Assembly: GCF_002844235.1 (NCBI RefSeq)
Contig: NZ_PGTS01000001.1
Location: 186,001-250,000, forward strand
Length of the DNA: 64,000 nt
Direction of reading: 5' to 3'
Source of the DNA: Thalassospira povalilytica
GTDB taxonomy: Bacteria > Pseudomonadota > Alphaproteobacteria > Rhodospirillales > Thalassospiraceae
Position numbers and translations under genes: made by a program. This document shows, one piece after another, positions 43,813-51,921 of this stretch (positions within the stretch are counted from its first letter, which is position 1; the number at the start of each line of letters is the position of its first letter). The notes under the pieces are model-generated. The model was not told the origin of the DNA. It did not search any database and saw only the letters and a list, made by a program, of their open reading frames with translations.

Positions 43813-45768
43813 TTATCGGGTATTTTGATTTTCCGGTGCGGCAAAGTCACGGCGATCGATTTTGAATTTCTTGATACGGGACGCCAGCGTTGTCGGTTTG
43901 ATATCAAGAAGTGCCGCGGCTCCGTCCGGGCCAAAAATCTTGCCCTGCGTCTGTCTTAGGGCATGGGTGATATTGTCATATTCGGTTTGTTGCATTTCAG
44001 CGCGCGTCAAAATGGTCCGGGCGGGCTGGGTATCCCGATCAGCTTTGGACGCGGGGGATGGTTTTTTGCCGTCCCGGGTGCTGAAATCGGGAAGATCGAA
44101 ATGCAATTTACCGTCATGGGCCAAGATGGCAGCGCGTTCAATCACGTTTTCAAGTTCGCGGGCATTTCCGGGCCAGCCATAATTTTGCAAAACATGAACC
44201 TGTCCCTTGGTCAGGGTGGGTTGGGCAATGTTCAGGCGCTGGCAGATATTGCGCAGGAAATGCGCGGCCAGCGGCGGAATGTCGTCTGGCCGTTCACGAA
44301 GCGGTCGACATTCAATCGGAAACACATTGAGGCGGAAATAAAGGTCCTCGCGAAACCGCCCCTGACGGACTTCTTCCTTAAGGTCGCGGTTGGTGGCGGC
44401 AATCAGGCGGACATTGACCTCGCGTGTGCGTTCTTCGCCGATACGCTCAAACTTCTGATCTTGCAGAACCCGCAAAAGCTTGCCCTGAAGTTCCAGCGGG
44501 ATTTCACCAACCTCATCTAGGAACAGGGTGCCGCCATCGGCCAGTTCAAAGCGCCCGACACGGTCGCGAATGGCGCCGGTAAAGGCCCCGCGCACATGCC
44601 CGAAAAATTCGCTTTCAAACAGTTCATGGGGGATGGCCGCACAATTCACGCGCACCAGAACGCGATCAGATCGTGTGCTGGCCTGATGGATGGCGCGCGC
44701 GATCAATTCCTTGCCGGTGCCGGATTCCCCGGTGATCAGAACGTTGGCGTCAGTCGGTGCAACCAGATCAATCTGTTTGAGCGCGCCTTGAATGGCATCC
44801 GATTGCCCGATGATTTCATGGTGATTGTTGGTCGACAGGATTTCTTCCTGAAGATAGGCATTTTCAAGTTCAAGCCGTTCACGAAGACGGTCGACCTCGG
44901 CAAGGGCGGCGTGCAGTTTTTCTTCGGCGATTTTGCGTTCGGTAATGTCTCGAAACACGATCACTGCCCCGATGACCAGACCATGGTCGCGAATGGGGGT
45001 GGATGTGTATTCGACCCGGATCGGTTTGCCATCGCTGCGCCAGAAGACTTCATCATCAACCCGTCTTACGATGCCCTCGCGGAATGCATTGTAAATCGGG
45101 CAGTGCTCGGCGTGATAGGGTTCGCCATCAACATGGGAATGGTGGATGATCGAATGGATTTCCTTGCCCACAAGTTCCTCGGCGGTCCAGCCCAACATGC
45201 GTTCGGCCGCCGGATTGACAAAGGTGGTTACCCCGTCCGAATTCACGCCGTAAATGCCTTCGCCGGCCGCGCCCAGGATCAGCTGGTTCTCGCGTTCGAT
45301 CTCGCGGAAAAACCGTTCGGCGCGTCGCCATTCGGCAATACCTTCGCGCAGGTAATCGTCGGCCTCGGAGTCAACATCCCGGCGGTGGCGGGCATCAAGA
45401 TCCGATATCGTTACCGTAAGATATTCTTCATCGCCTAGCGTGATGGCGCGGGCTTCGTGTTCTAGTTTCAGTTGGGTGCCGTCCGGCCGGCTCAGGTCCA
45501 GTCCGCGGGTCCAGGAAAATCCGTGATAAAGGGCGGCTTCGCTGAACACGACAAGGCTTGGCACCTGTCCCTTGTGCAGGGCGCTCATTTTCAGGGATAT
45601 GAGGGCGTCTATGCTGCGGCCCAGCAATTTTGCCGCCGCCTCATTGGCGAACACGATGCTGTCGGTTTTGGGGTGAACCAGAATTGTCGGATGCGTATGC
45701 GCCAAAAGAGCCTGCAGATGGAGCGGCTCCAAAGACGTTGAAACAGATTGGTTTACGTCATGGTTCAT
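43813..45768 (-). CDS. cynF: Sigma-54-dependent regulator with PAS domains, CynF-like
   Basis: This bacterial enhancer-binding protein of 651 residues has two PAS regions (about 25-130 and 165-285, the second ending [17 protein letters not shown]), a coiled linker, and an AAA+ domain with Walker A GESGTGKE, the sigma-54-contacting GAFTGA loop, Walker [13 protein letters not shown] and arginine-finger region [14 protein letters not shown] Fis-type HTH ends the protein. It is divergent from cynABDS, and three matching palindromes sit upstream of a sigma-54 promoter between them. A Fis-like regulator called CynF heads the cyn cluster in Pseudomonas; the name here rests on this context. Confidence 0.88.
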
Positions 45769-45778
45769 ACGAATTTCC

Positions 45779-45831
45779 TACGATAATTCGTAATTATGGT
45801 TACGAATTATCGTAAATTACGATTTTTCGTA
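45779..45831. promoter_or_regulatory. Three TACGA-N4-TCGTA activator sites upstream of the cyn promoter
   Basis: Three perfect inverted repeats of the form TACGA-N4-TCGTA occur at 45779-45792, 45801-45814 and 45818-45831. The first two also form the arms of a larger 15-bp perfect inverted repeat with a 6-bp spacer. They lie about 100-145 bp upstream of the predicted cyn start site, the normal distance for sigma-54 enhancer sites, and immediately upstream of the cynF start. Confidence 0.85.
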
Positions 45832-45901
45832 TATGTGAAGACTGCCTGTCATCATCCCCTGAGTCCAGCATTTTCAACGAAAATTCCGCATTGCAGCAAA
45901 C

Positions 45902-45917
45902 TGGCACGACGGTTGCT
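45902..45917 (+). promoter_or_regulatory. Sigma-54 promoter of cynABDS
   Basis: TGGCACG-N4-TTGCT matches the sigma-54 consensus exactly, with the invariant GG and GC dinucleotides at -24 and -12. Transcription would start near 45928, about 55 bp before the cynA start codon. Confidence 0.88.
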
Positions 45918-45983
45918 CTTATCCTGACTGAATGTCTGGTGCTGTTCTGATCTGGACAGCGAAACAACACAGGGGGTGATCAA

Positions 45984-47432
45984 ATGTCAGTTAAAAGTCT
46001 GGGCGATCCATTTAGCGGTGATACCGACCTGCGGCACAGCAAATCGTGCGGTTGTGATATGTGCGCGTCAAAGGGCGGGCATCACCAATCGGATCATGAT
46101 CATGGTGTAAAGCACGATCTGTCGACGATGCCTGCTCATAGCGATATGGCGGCAAAGACACCGGAAAGCAGCGAAGAAATCCTTGATCGCGCCATCGACA
46201 GCGCGATTGTCCGTTCGGTTTTCGGTCACAACGAAATTTCACGTCGTTCCTTTGCCAAGATGGTTGGCGGCAGCACCATGATGGCGGCATTGGCATCGGT
46301 ATTGCCAATCGACAAGGTCAAGGCAGCCATCCTTGATGATCTGGGGACACCGGAAAAGTCGAAGCTCAATATCGGCTTTGTGCCGATCACCTGTGCCACG
46401 CCGATCATCATGGCGCAGCCGATGGGCTTCTATGAAAAATACGGTCTTGATGTTGATGTCATCAAAACCGCGGGCTGGGCGGTGGCCCGCGACAAGTCGC
46501 TGAACAATGAATATGACGCGTCGCACATGCTGACCCCGATGCCGCTGGCCATTTCGATGGGGGCGGGTTCAACCGCGACCCCGTTCCTGATGCCGGCTGT
46601 TGAAAACATCAATGGCCAGGCCATCGTTCTGCACAATGACCATCTGGATAAGCGCGATCCGAGACAGTGGAAAGGCTTCAAGTTTGGTGTGCCGTTCGAA
46701 TATTCGATGCACAACTTCCTGCTGCGTTATTATGTCGCTGAACATGGTCTGGACCCGGATAAGGACATCCAGATCCGCGTTGTTCCGCCGCCCGAGATGG
46801 TGGCAAACCTGCGTGCCGGTAACCTTGACGGGTATCTGTCACCCGATCCGTTTAACCAGCGTGCGGTATGGGAAAAAATCGGCTTCCTGCACACCCTGAC
46901 CAAAGATATCTGGGAAGGTCATCCGTGCTGTGCATTTGCCTGTTCCAAGGCCTTTTCCGAAGAACTGCCGAATACCTATGGCGCGCTTTTGAAATCCATT
47001 GTGGATGCGACCCAATACGCGGCCAAGCCCGAAAACCGCAAGGAAATTTCGGCGGCGATTGCCCCGGCCAACTATCTGAACCAGCCGGTTCCAGTCATTG
47101 AACAGGTCCTGACCGGACGTTATGCCGATGGTCTGGGCGAAGTTAAAAACGTCCCTGATCGCATCGATTTCGATCCGTTCCCGTGGCATTCGATGGGGGT
47201 GTGGATTCTGACCCAGATGAAGCGCTGGGGCTATATCGAAGGCGATATCGATTACAAGAAAATCGCCGAGGAAGTCTATGTCGCGACCGATTGTGCCAAG
47301 GTGATGAAAGACCTTGGATATGAGGCCCCGACTTCGACCTATAAGTCCTATACCATCATGGGCAAGACCTTTGATCCCGATCAGCCCGAAGCCTATGTCA
47401 ACAGCTTTGCGATTGGCAAAGGGGTAAGCTGA
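45984..47432 (+). CDS. cynA: Cyanate ABC transporter substrate-binding protein (CmpA/NrtA family)
   Basis: This binding protein of 482 residues belongs to the CmpA/NrtA family of nitrate, bicarbonate and cyanate receptors. A Tat-type motif (SRRSFAKM) appears only near residue 85, preceded by an unusual Cys/His-rich region (SCGCDMC, then GGHHQSDHDHG). The ligand domain runs from SKLNIGFVPITCATPIIMAQPMGFYEKYGL onward. Its role as the cyanate receptor rests on the adjacent permease, ATPase and cynS and on the sigma-54 promoter directly upstream. The permease start lies 1 bp after its stop. Confidence 0.87.
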   Translation: MSVKSLGDPFSGDTDLRHSKSCGCDMCASKGGHHQSDHDHGVKHDLSTMPAHSDMAAKTPESSEEILDRAIDSAIVRSVFGHNEISRRSFAKMVGGSTMMAALASVLPIDKVKAAILDDLGTPEKSKLNIGFVPITCATPIIMAQPMGFYEKYGLDVDVIKTAGWAVARDKSLNNEYDASHMLTPMPLAISMGAGSTATPFLMPAVENINGQAIVLHNDHLDKRDPRQWKGFKFGVPFEYSMHNFLLRYYVAEHGLDPDKDIQIRVVPPPEMVANLRAGNLDGYLSPDPFNQRAVWEKIGFLHTLTKDIWEGHPCCAFACSKAFSEELPNTYGALLKSIVDATQYAAKPENRKEISAAIAPANYLNQPVPVIEQVLTGRYADGLGEVKNVPDRIDFDPFPWHSMGVWILTQMKRWGYIEGDIDYKKIAEEVYVATDCAKVMKDLGYEAPTSTYKSYTIMGKTFDPDQPEAYVNSFAIGKGVS

Positions 47433-47433
47433 C

Positions 47434-48264
47434 ATGCTGGCATCGTTGAATGCCAGGGCTTTGGTTTTGTCACTCGTGCTATTGGCGGTCTTCCTTGGCC
47501 TTTGGGAGGCCGCCAGCCCGAAACAGAACATTTCTGGCGAACTGACAGAATATGAACTTCTGATGGGTGGGGCAGAACCCAAGGCGGCCGTGCCGCCACC
47601 CTCGGCAGTGATCGGCAAGGCATGGGAAGAACTTCGCAATCCTTTCTATGATGCAGGCCCCAACGACAAGGGGATCGGCATCCAGATCGGCTATTCGCTT
47701 TATCGGGTTCTTTCGGGATATTTCCTTGCTGCGGCGCTGGCCATTCCGGTCGGGTTCCTGATCGGAATGTCGCCCCTGATGTATAAGGCGCTTGATCCGT
47801 TTATTCAGGTGCTAAGACCGATTTCCCCGCTGGCGTGGATGCCTTTGGCCCTGTTTGTCATTCAGGACAGTCAGGCATCGGCAATCTTTGTCATATTCAT
47901 CTGTTCGATCTGGCCGATGCTGATCAATACGGCATTCGGTGTGGCCGGGGTGCGCAAGGACTGGGTCAATGTGGCGCGAACCCACGAACTGGGTCCTTTC
48001 AAAACCGCATGGATCGTCATCCTGCCCGCTGCGGCACCAACCATTTTGACCGGAATGCGCATTTCCATCGGGATTGCCTGGCTGGTGATTGTCGCTGCCG
48101 AGATGCTCGTGGGCGGTACCGGCATTGGCTACTACGTCTGGAATGAATGGAACAACCTTGATCTGACCAGTGTGGTGTTCTCGATCCTGATGATCGGGGT
48201 TGTCGGCATGTTGCTTGATACGGCCTTCGCCTATTGCGCACGCCTTGTGCAGTACCAGGAATAA
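47434..48264 (+). CDS. cynB: Cyanate ABC transporter permease (NrtB family)
   Basis: This inner-membrane ABC permease of 276 residues has an N-terminal TM ([20 protein letters not shown]), then several TM segments and the ABC-interaction EAA-type loop ([44 protein letters not shown]). It belongs to the NrtB/SsuC/TauC group. The gene lies between cynA and cynD with almost no spacing. Confidence 0.88.
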
Positions 48265-48275
48265 GGAGACCAGAT

Positions 48276-49202
48276 ATGTCGACACCATTCCTGAGTGTTC
48301 AAAACCTTACCAAACGTTTTCAGGCCCCCAAGGGTGGCGAAAGCCTGACGGTATTTGAAAACGTCAATCTCGGGATCGAGAAGGGCGAGTTTGTTTGCAT
48401 CATCGGTCATTCCGGCTGTGGCAAATCAACCATCCTGAACATTCTTGCGGGGCTTGATGAACCAAGCGACGGCGCGGTCATCATGAATGGCAAGGAAGTT
48501 TCCGGGCCCAGTCTGGATCGCGGGATCGTGTTTCAGAACTATTCCCTGCTGCCATGGTTGTCCGCGCTCAAGAACGTCACTTTTGCCGTTCAGGCGCGCT
48601 ACAAATCCTGGAGCAAAAAGCAGGTTCACGATCATTCGATGAAATATCTCGAAATGGTCGGTCTTGCGGGCGGGGCGGAATTGCGCAAGCCATCGCAACT
48701 GTCTGGCGGGATGCGTCAGCGTGTATCGATTGCACGTGCCTTTGCCATTCAGCCGGAACTGCTTTTGCTCGATGAGCCGTTCGGCGCACTTGATGCGCTG
48801 ACCCGTGGCAGCATCCAGGACGAGTTGATCCGCATCTGGTCGGGATCGGACCAGACGGTCTTTATGATCACCCATGATGTTGATGAAGCCATCCTGCTTG
48901 CGGACCGCATTTTGTTGATGACCAACGGTCCCTATGCCCGGGTTGCCGAGTCCGTTCAGGTCGAAATCGAACGACCGCGTGAACGGGCCAACATTATCCA
49001 TCATCCCGACTATTACGACATCCGCAATCACCTGGTGGAGTTCCTGGCCACACGGTCGCGCGAACTTGCCGGGAAACAGGACGATGATGCGAATTCCGCA
49101 CCAAAAGTCGTCCGGTTCGGGGCAAATGCCGGGGCGGAAATCTCATCAGAAACAGGCAGCAAGTCCGGCACGCGCAAGCGTGCGGTCAATCGTGCCGATT
49201 AA
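48276..49202 (+). CDS. cynD: Cyanate ABC transporter ATP-binding protein (NrtD family)
   Basis: This is the ATPase subunit of the transporter, 308 residues. Walker A is GHSGCGKST, the signature [14 protein letters not shown], Walker [13 protein letters not shown] and the H-loop [10 protein letters not shown]. About 50 low-complexity residues follow the ATPase core. The ATG at 48276 follows AAGGAG; the open frame to 48234 overlaps cynB and is unlikely. Confidence 0.9.
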
Positions 49203-49239
49203 TCAAAACAACGTGCTGTATCAGAAGTGGAGAAAACCC

Positions 49240-49680
49240 ATGAAAAAAGCTGACGTCAAAGAACTCATTCTCGAAGCCAAAAAGGCCAAAGGGCTCGGTT
49301 GGGAAGAGATCGCAAGCAAGATCGGTATGTCCCCGGTTTGGACAACTTCCGTGTGCTTTGGCATGAATTCGGCGCCAAAGGACAAGGCCGACATGCTGGT
49401 TGCCCTGTTTGACCTGCCGCCCGAAGCATCGGCTGTCATTCAGGAATGCCCGATGAAAATCTGGGACCAGGCGGTCCCGACCGATCCGGCCATCTATCGT
49501 CTGTATGAAATCGTTGGTGTTTACGGCGAAACCATCAAGGAAATCATCCACGAGAAATTCGGCGACGGCATCATGAGTGCGATCGATTACGAAATGTATA
49601 TCGAACGCAAGGAAGACCCGAAAGGTGACCGTGTCGTGATTACCCTGGATGGCAAGTTCCTGAAATACCGCGCCTGGTAA
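49240..49680 (+). CDS. cynS: Cyanate hydratase (cyanase)
   Basis: CynS decomposes cyanate with bicarbonate to ammonia and CO2 via carbamate, giving nitrogen and detoxifying cyanate. The 146-residue protein has an N-terminal helical domain (MKKADVKELILEAKKAKGLGWEEIASKIGMS) and the catalytic C-terminal half with Arg, Glu and Ser residues in AIYRLYEIVGVYGETIKEIIHEKFGDGIMSAIDYEMYIERKEDPKGDRV. The ATG at 49240 is preferred; a longer frame runs back into cynD. It is the last gene of the cyn operon, 37 bp after cynD. Confidence 0.96.
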   Translation: MKKADVKELILEAKKAKGLGWEEIASKIGMSPVWTTSVCFGMNSAPKDKADMLVALFDLPPEASAVIQECPMKIWDQAVPTDPAIYRLYEIVGVYGETIKEIIHEKFGDGIMSAIDYEMYIERKEDPKGDRVVITLDGKFLKYRAW

Positions 49681-50754: not shown

Positions 50755-51921
50755 ATGACCAGCCGCATCAAGGACGCAGCACTTGCCGCCCAGATCAATG
50801 ACGAAACGCTTGCATGGCGCGAAGTCATCTGTCCGGTAACGGCGAAATACGGAAACTATGTCGCCAAGCGTGACTTGCGCGACAAGACCATCGTCAGCTT
50901 CCAGCACGTTCTTGAAGACACCATTCCCACATTGCTGCCGTTTGTGAAGGCGGGTGCGAAGGTCAAGGTCGGGGCATGTAACCCCGATAGTACCGATGAC
51001 GTTGCCGCCGCATACCTTGCTGCGAACGGGGTAGAGGTCCATGCCTTTTCGGGCATGACACCCGAAGAATATGCCAAAAGCATCGATATCCTGTCGTCCG
51101 AGCCAGCCGACATTGTCGCTGACATGGGTGGGGAGCTGATCGAGGCTTTTGTCAAAAAAGGTCATAAGGTCGACGGTGCGCTTGAAGCCACGACGACGGG
51201 TGTTCACCGCGTTGAAAAGCTTGATTATTCATTCCCGGTCTTTAACTGGAACGACATCGCGATCAAGGATCGCCTGCATAACCGACATCACGTGGCACAG
51301 GAAATGTGGCCGGTCTTTTCCAATGTAACCGGTCTGGCGCTTTATGGTCGTTCGGTTCTGGTGATCGGGTTCGGGCCGGTGGGGCGCGGTGTTGCCGAAC
51401 GTGCGCGCAATCTTGGTGCGGTGGTCTCGGTTGCCGAACGCGATCCGGTGCGCGCCCTTGAAGCCCAGCATCACGGATGCCGTGTCGTCAGCCTTGAAGA
51501 CGGCATCAAGGAATGCGCGATCATTGTGACCGCAACCGGTCTTTCGGGCATTCTGGGTGAAAACCAGATCAAGCAGGCCCGCCGCGGTGCCATTCTGGTT
51601 AATGTCGGTCATTCCAATACCGAGATCGATGTGGCATGGCTCGATACCCAGAAAAGCACCAAAATGCGCCGCTATATCGAAAAATTCGAATTCGATAACA
51701 GCCGCGAAGTGTATTTGCTTAACCGCGGCAGTCTTTTGAACCTGGCACCGGGCATGGGTGGTTCGGGCAAGGATCTGTTCGATCCGTTTTCCGCAATTCT
51801 GATCCGTGGAATTGACTGGTTGGCATCGGGCGGGGCCAATGCGTTCAAACCGGGATTTTATGATTACCCGGCCGAGATCGAACGCGAAATCGCCGAGGCG
51901 ATCCTGCATTCGCACAGTTGA
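50755..51921 (+). CDS. Divergent S-adenosylhomocysteine-hydrolase-like protein
   Basis: This 388-residue NAD-binding protein aligns by eye with S-adenosylhomocysteine hydrolase: CNPDSTDDVAAAYL, EATTTGVHRVEKLD, NWNDIAIKDRLHN, Rossmann GRSVLVIGFGPVGRGVAERARNLGA and C-terminal KPGFYDYP. It is about 50-80 residues shorter than usual, and most catalytic residues appear changed: EETTTG becomes EATTTG, the SKFDN Lys/Asp pair becomes Arg/His, and the HMT Thr becomes Leu. It is unlikely to be a normal hydrolase and may act on a different nucleoside thioether or be regulatory. It follows a GST gene on the same strand. Confidence 0.75.
   Translation: MTSRIKDAALAAQINDETLAWREVICPVTAKYGNYVAKRDLRDKTIVSFQHVLEDTIPTLLPFVKAGAKVKVGACNPDSTDDVAAAYLAANGVEVHAFSGMTPEEYAKSIDILSSEPADIVADMGGELIEAFVKKGHKVDGALEATTTGVHRVEKLDYSFPVFNWNDIAIKDRLHNRHHVAQEMWPVFSNVTGLALYGRSVLVIGFGPVGRGVAERARNLGAVVSVAERDPVRALEAQHHGCRVVSLEDGIKECAIIVTATGLSGILGENQIKQARRGAILVNVGHSNTEIDVAWLDTQKSTKMRRYIEKFEFDNSREVYLLNRGSLLNLAPGMGGSGKDLFDPFSAILIRGIDWLASGGANAFKPGFYDYPAEIEREIAEAILHSHS

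Follow-up and report, generated by a model that had tools for sequence, protein, structure and literature searches.

The gap between cynF and cynA in Thalassospira povalilytica (45769-45983 of the window, by which we mean the whole 64,000-nucleotide stretch analysed) is in all likelihood the CynF-dependent sigma-54 promoter of cynABDS, with three CynF dimers placed on three palindromic boxes and seeding a hexamer. A sigma-54 promoter with three enhancer sites had originally been predicted from this DNA, and this core of the prediction is supported by the conservation of the sites, their geometry, a DNA-only genome search and the covariation of the boxes with the recognition helix of CynF. Judged from these sequence comparisons, the three palindromes are very probably the landing sites of CynF. 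In the mechanism that we propose, three CynF dimers would bind the three ACGA-N4-TCGT palindromes through their C-terminal Fis/FhlA-type HTH, and neighbouring dimers, 22 and 17 bp apart, would seed the AAA+ hexamer. Across about 80 bp, and from a fixed face of the helix, the hexamer would contact RNA polymerase-sigma54 at the -24/-12 element and would open the promoter when the N-terminal PAS region signals cyanate. We thus infer that CynF contacts the boxes, that three dimers join into one hexamer, that the PAS region senses cyanate and that box 1 serves autorepression of cynF.

The cynF-cynA gap and its predicted elements

The open reading frames and their profile matches describe a cynFABDS cluster, in which a cyanase is present and cynF, on the minus strand, diverges from cynA-cynB-cynD-cynS on the plus strand (45984-49680, Table 1). 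The AAA+ domain of CynF is matched by Pfam Sigma54_activat (2.7e-73) and by AAA_lid_14, and PAS_9 (Pfam) is found in two stretches. The translation also carries the GAFTGA motif, the Walker A motif GESGTGKE and the Walker B motif LFLDEVGE of a sigma-54-dependent bacterial enhancer-binding protein (bEBP). The Pfam search of CynF gave no separate HTH match; in the alignment over clusters, an HTH-like GPx... stretch is visible by eye at the C-terminus. Among the NCBIfam models, CynF scores best with that of the FhlA-type bEBPs (390.7 bits over residues 271-640), yet it is not FhlA by the curated cut-off of 830. Within the second PAS domain, hardly any CynF cluster departs from His205, His209 and Cys223; similar residues were seen by eye in paralogues, so these residues are probably not specific to cyanate.

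Table 1 Features of the cyn locus, in window coordinates; box distances are counted from the centre of the site to the first G of the -24 GG
Feature	Position	Strand	Description
cynF	43813..45768	-	ORF; PAS-PAS-AAA+-HTH sigma-54 activator (bEBP), 651 aa
CynF box 1 (predicted)	45779..45792		TACGATAATTCGTA; centre 117.5 bp upstream of -24 GG
36-bp inverted repeat (boxes 1 and 2)	45779..45814		perfect, 15+6+15
CynF box 2 (predicted)	45801..45814		TACGAATTATCGTA; centre 95.5 bp upstream of -24 GG
CynF box 3 (predicted)	45818..45831		TACGATTTTTCGTA; centre 78.5 bp upstream of -24 GG
Sigma-54 -24/-12 element of cynA	45902..45917	+	TGGCACG-ACGG-TTGCT; TGGCACGACGGTTGCT
cynA	45984..47432	+	cyanate ABC transporter substrate-binding protein; NMT1_2 9.7e-89; named via gene order
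cynB	47434..48264	+	permease (NtrB-type); TIGR01183 2.5e-67, over cut-off
cynD	48276..49202	+	ATPase (NtrCD-type); TIGR01184 4.1e-95, over cut-off
cynS	49234..49680	+	cyanase; TIGR00673 5.1e-50, over cut-off; Pfam Cyanate_lyase

The gap contains what had originally been read in it, namely three exact TACGA-N4-TCGTA sites and a perfect TGGCACG-N4-TTGCT promoter. Measured from centre to centre, boxes 1 and 2 are 22 bp apart and boxes 2 and 3 are 17 bp apart, and the end of box 1 lies 10 bp from the cynF ATG (45768, minus strand). The promoter element, upstream of cynA, has the GG-N10-GC arrangement and the TGGCAC/TTGC consensus and is the window's only -24/-12 match with fewer than two mismatches; from the position of its -12 element, cynA transcription would start at about 45928. 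Across the whole 4.44-Mb genome, exact TACGA-N4-TCGTA occurs three times, each time in the cyn gap and all within 53 bp. The reversed pattern, taken as an approximate measure of chance, turns up four times in the genome; a single copy therefore carries little weight, whereas three within 53 bp are meaningful. Similarly, when up to two mismatches are allowed the window holds nine matches against 11.8 expected, and hence only the exact, clustered copies are unusual.

The description of this control region as complete was too strong. We found no convincing NtrC box in the gap (the best NtrC-like match has 3 mismatches in 12), no convincing sigma-70 promoter for cynF, no IHF site with at most one mismatch between the boxes and the promoter, and no element in the gap that accounts for ammonium control. 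At 45860-45880, between box 3 and the promoter, an alignment of six Thalassospira loci shows partial conservation of a block (AGTCCAG...TTTTCAACG).

Conservation and spacing of the boxes across cyn loci

We collected cyn loci from five sources: 100 relatives (19 genomes with a CynF match, the window's own included); GTDB contigs, of which at least 589 stretches matched a search pattern, at least 587 encode relatives and the best 80 were used; and evenly drawn genomes of the phylum (398, 20 with a match), the gammaproteobacteria (368, 19 with a match) and the alphaproteobacteria (385, 19 with a match). Among the first 99 loci, which include the best 80 of the at least 587 relatives, cynA or cynS is divergent from cynF in 97. 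The exceptions are L037, which came without upstream sequence, and L058, a MAG contig with convergent cynF and cynA and no exact boxes upstream of cynA. At least three TACGA-N4-TCGTA sites (up to 2 of 10 mismatches) precede the operon in 81 of the 97 divergent loci, a set that includes several copies of the same species; the remainder have two sites (11 loci), one (2) or none (3). Where cynS takes the place of cynA beside cynF (nine loci), three boxes are present in seven and two in the other two at the same threshold.

Redundancy was reduced by grouping 115 upstream regions into 41 clusters at 80% identity. The exact ACGA-N4-TCGT core is found at least once in 33 of these clusters, and one region from each cluster gives 62 sites in total; dinucleotide shuffles of the 41 regions average 0.27 sites and never exceed 2. 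With one mismatch allowed, 25 clusters have three or more sites (shuffles: mean 0.03, maximum 1). Neighbouring exact sites in the 41 clusters were separated by 17 bp (12 times), 18 bp (once), 21-23 bp (12 times) or 38-40 bp (four times) and by nothing else; the last distance is the sum of both spacings where the middle site is weak.

A larger set of 148 regions, from which 14 paralogues (L133 and L141-L153) were set apart, left 134 regions in 55 CynF clusters (80% identity). Triples with no more than 3 mismatches in the 24 core positions recur in 37 of the 55, at cyn loci of both Alpha- and Gammaproteobacteria. Their spacing is 21-23 and then 17-18 bp in 36 of the 37 clusters (first spacing 21-23 in 36 and 13 in one; second spacing 17 in 33, 18 in three and 26 in one). 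L077 did not show the canonical geometry. As a definition of the CynF motif, the originally proposed sequence holds in its ACGA-N4-TCGT core, whereas the outer T and A vary outside the genus. The 18 clusters without a triple within three mismatches were searched again with the geometry imposed and AYGA-N4-TCRT allowed, and compared with 60 base shuffles. Ten exceeded all 60 shuffles (L059, L070, L076, L082, L127, L139, L140, L160, L164 and L167) and eight did not (L052, L081, L089, L091, L101, L163, L165 and L166). A reading of 29.5 bp in L124, a locus absent from the 55-cluster counts, is an artefact: its first box lay beyond the stretch extracted, and a spurious site was counted as the third. 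Like palindromes with conserved spacing are thus found upstream of the promoter in many loci. A chance origin of the boxes is ruled out by the genome count, the shuffles and the DNA-only searches described below.

The canonical geometry (a triple with at most five mismatches) together with a -24/-12 element (at most two mismatches) is present in 38 of the 55 CynF clusters. The distance from the centre of box 3 to the -24 GG is 63.5-68.5 bp in 10 of these, 74.5-79.5 in 23, 81.5 in one, 86.5-89.5 in three and 98.5 in one; in Azospirillum L098 it is 53.5 bp. These distances fit best to a period of 11.7 bp (R 0.71; R 0.64 at 10.5), and when each distance is counted once, 99 of 5000 random sets phase as well, so the phasing statistic alone is moderate evidence. 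We further placed the distances, available for 50 of 56 CynF proteins, on a tree of all 56 sequences truncated ahead of the HTH; L165 was dropped from this, the pair and the recognition-helix analyses because its cynA starts right at the truncated match. At least 12 changes of distance step are needed on this tree. In 23 independent pairs, on separate tree paths, the two distances differ by 3 bp or less in 15, by 10-13 bp in five, by 21 and 25 bp in two and by 8 bp in one, a pair that includes L040, whose -24/-12 element has two mismatches. Distances for the tree and the pairs were entered by hand where not computed (L098, L163, L164, L049, L081, L082, L089, L101, L059, L139, L140, L160, L167, L070 and L127); part of them were taken with the box geometry imposed, and L081, L089, L101 and L163 are not above shuffles. 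We read the overall pattern as helical phasing over short, stiff DNA.

Boxes 1 and 2 also form the 36-bp inverted repeat that had been described, a perfect one, which largely follows from two palindromes standing side by side. As RNA, the cynF strand of this repeat folds into an unbroken stem of 15-16 bp (-18.6 kcal/mol, z -6.8, for a 42-nt piece). Within Thalassospira, box 1 and box 2 have N4 cores that match as reverse complements at 3.22 of 4 positions, and at 2.19 when the partners are shuffled; of the six comparisons made, this one, on 9 distinct triples, is the strongest (1 of 2000 shuffles). Since 12 of 15 distinct Thalassospira regions (L004-L022) keep the repeat at all four N4 positions, the idea that the long inverted repeat is not kept within the genus is ruled out. 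The stem and this covariation are what one would expect if the repeat acted mainly as RNA, limiting CynF synthesis through a hairpin at the Shine-Dalgarno sequence of the cynF leader, with the boxes as by-products. We nevertheless consider that explanation very unlikely: conservation extends to box 3, which is no part of the hairpin; the distance that the boxes maintain is the one to the cynA promoter and not to cynF; two loci (L007 and L016) keep the palindromes and break the arm pairing (1 of 4); and beyond the genus the two arms covary weakly (2.09 against 1.74 of 4; 10 of 2000 shuffles). The covariation of the arms could stem from template switching between near-inverted repeats or from an RNA hairpin.

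One site does abut the cynF start, as predicted, and autoregulation of cynF through box 1 is plausible: box 1 extends into the ribosome-binding region of cynF, so that repression of this gene by occupied boxes is conceivable. The arrangement is not conserved, however. Over the 38 clusters, with cynF start codons estimated by alignment, box 1 lies between -45 and +233 nt from the homologue of the cynF start, with negative values in 11, and the conserved constraint is therefore the relation of the boxes to the cynA promoter. This variation, set against the constancy of the box spacing and of the steps to the -24 element, makes it highly improbable that the boxes, although bound by CynF, are mainly an operator for repressing cynF, with cynA activated from solution or from one site, even though the position of box 1 in the window would suit such a role.

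DNA-only searches, recognition helix and related activators

We searched genomes for pairs of ACGA-N4-TCGT cores separated by 1-26 bases, using no protein information. Among 385 alphaproteobacterial genomes, this doublet occurred at nine places in eight genomes, and a reversed control pattern gave eight matches in eight genomes. Five of the nine places have a centre distance of 17 or 21-23 bp, and all five, including the window's own, lie between cynF and cynA; at the other four (27, 28, 36 and 36 bp), no CynF, CynA or CynS match was found within the loci. The sensitivity of this search is low, as the protein search detected CynF in 19 of the 385 genomes. In 331 gammaproteobacterial genomes, the doublet was found at 17 places in 12 genomes (control: 23 matches in 22 genomes), with the cyn geometry (17, 18, 21 or 22 bp) at 10 of them. 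Four of these 10 are cyn loci, including L173, which had escaped the protein search at its 1e-150 threshold; four have a CynF-related activator next to them and no cyn genes, and the last two, in one genome, are 4.4 and 4.9 kb from such an activator. The remaining seven places have spacings of 27, 32, 36 and 37 bp, and the six fetched showed no CynF, CynA or CynS match. Chance alone would give about as many doublets of any spacing as there were matches to the reversed control, which was no rarer than the doublet itself. A doublet by itself is therefore weak evidence, and what counts, and would not be expected by chance, is its geometry together with its gene context. Since doublets with cyn geometry fall at cyn loci or near related activators, the code belongs with CynF and the paralogues closest to it.

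The recognition helix of CynF, KPTTLASR in the window, provides a further link. Of 54 clusters, 28 have Ala at residue 629, 14 have Tyr and 12 have another residue. Clusters with Ala629 have strict boxes (median of 1 mismatch in 24, for the best triple with imposed geometry), and those with Tyr629 have relaxed ones (median 5.5), with TATGA for TACGA among the changes. This difference in strictness (Mann-Whitney p 3e-5) is not corrected for relatedness, and the covariation partly follows the tree. No ACGA triple above shuffles was found for the paralogues L147-L152, whose helices resemble KPSTLTYRM. Taken together, the covariation of helix and box and the lack of a triple in these paralogues tie the box to CynF.

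The consensus of NtcA is GTA-N8-TAC. That the palindromes bind another regulator (NtcA/Crp-like, or a nitrogen regulator of the NtrC type) with CynF acting elsewhere is hardly credible to us, although GTA-N8-TAC can be read at 45790-45803 and the main text of PMC6627978 describes ammonium repression of the Pseudomonas operon, because this string is absent from L005, which has a 21-bp spacing between boxes 1 and 2, the gap offers NtrC nothing better than the poor match given above, and the boxes both track cynF and its paralogues in the genome searches and covary with the CynF recognition helix.

Gammaproteobacterial CynF paralogues without cyn genes in their loci include L141-L153, L171, L178-L180, L183 and L185. 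Several of these loci have ACGA-N4-TCGT pairs 17-18 bp apart, near the paralogue's own gene or its neighbours, which by eye are alpha/beta hydrolase-like, amine oxidase-like and other genes. At the gammaproteobacterial cyn locus L173, the activator matches CynF only in its AAA+ and HTH parts and has a different, shorter N-terminus; its ACGA-N4-TCGT boxes are still 22 bp apart. The sensor of this activator may have been exchanged.

Returning to CynF as the protein that probably occupies the boxes, a broader proposal would treat the 22/17-bp triple as a near-rigid DNA template that closes three CynF-type dimers into a hexamer with one helix face towards the promoter, in two proteobacterial classes, with the 17-bp step also used by a wider PAS-bEBP subfamily, the paralogues without cyn genes. 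On this proposal we are evenly divided.

Comparison with known sigma-54 systems

According to the main text of a 2019 study of Pseudomonas pseudoalcaligenes CECT5344 (PMC6627978), expression of cynABDS requires CynF, is induced by cyanate and is repressed by ammonium, and the cyn cluster has a sigma-54 promoter. The window has in common with the cynFABDS cluster of that strain the divergent cynF, the cynABDS order and the sigma-54 promoter ahead of cynA. The same main text contains neither "enhancer" nor "palindrom". In our set, the Pseudomonas loci L090, L094 and L096 have [GA]ACGA-N4-TCGT[TGA] boxes 23 and 17 bp apart, and L093 has the outer two only, 40 bp apart and within two mismatches. 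In the sections of PMC12316311 covered here, cyanate lyase is listed among the sigma-54-regulated genes enriched in alpha- and gammaproteobacteria, and no CynF box is given.

The closest parallel in arrangement is NorR. In the parts of Bush et al. (PMC2941729) drawn on here, three enhancer sites are described as essential for NorR activation and as a scaffold for a higher-order oligomer, most likely a hexamer. The E. coli norR-norVW region, like the cyn locus, has a divergent activator gene and three palindromes upstream of a -24/-12 element; we computed spacings of 21 and 24 bp, with centres 107, 86 and 62 bp from the -24 GG. The two systems thus share a plan and differ in the box (GT-N7-AC for NorR, ACGA-N4-TCGT for CynF), in the second spacing, which is tighter for CynF, and in the sensor, which is a GAF domain for NO in NorR and PAS domains in CynF. 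For comparison with FhlA, we inspected the E. coli hycA-hypA gap by eye and saw no ACGA-N4-TCGT.

The dependence on CynF and the sigma-54 promoter in Pseudomonas were therefore known, as was the bEBP enhancer with three sites as a kind. The CynF box and its spacing code are apparently new relative to the open-access papers searched, in which we found no CynF box. To a known requirement for CynF in cyanate use, the present analysis adds a predicted binding code. Dozens of loci with natural variants in spacing, distance and recognition helix form a ready comparative set for asking how the spacing of dimers on DNA directs the assembly of an AAA+ activator hexamer, a question for which NorR is the worked example that we found.

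Two minor observations concern the proteins encoded downstream of the gap. The N-terminal segment of CynA (45984-46180) contains a C-x-C-x-x-C or C-x-C-x-x-H motif, also seen in related loci, and in the window's CynA this segment precedes a twin-arginine-like SRRSF motif. Among 114 CynA N-termini, with species repeats kept, 57 have C-x-C-x-x-C, 54 have C-x-C-x-x-H and three have neither; the segment looks like a metal-binding piece. Beyond cynS, and 3' of a glutathione transferase-like gene as well, a relative of adenosylhomocysteinase of 388 aa is encoded at 50755-51921, under the NCBIfam cut-offs.
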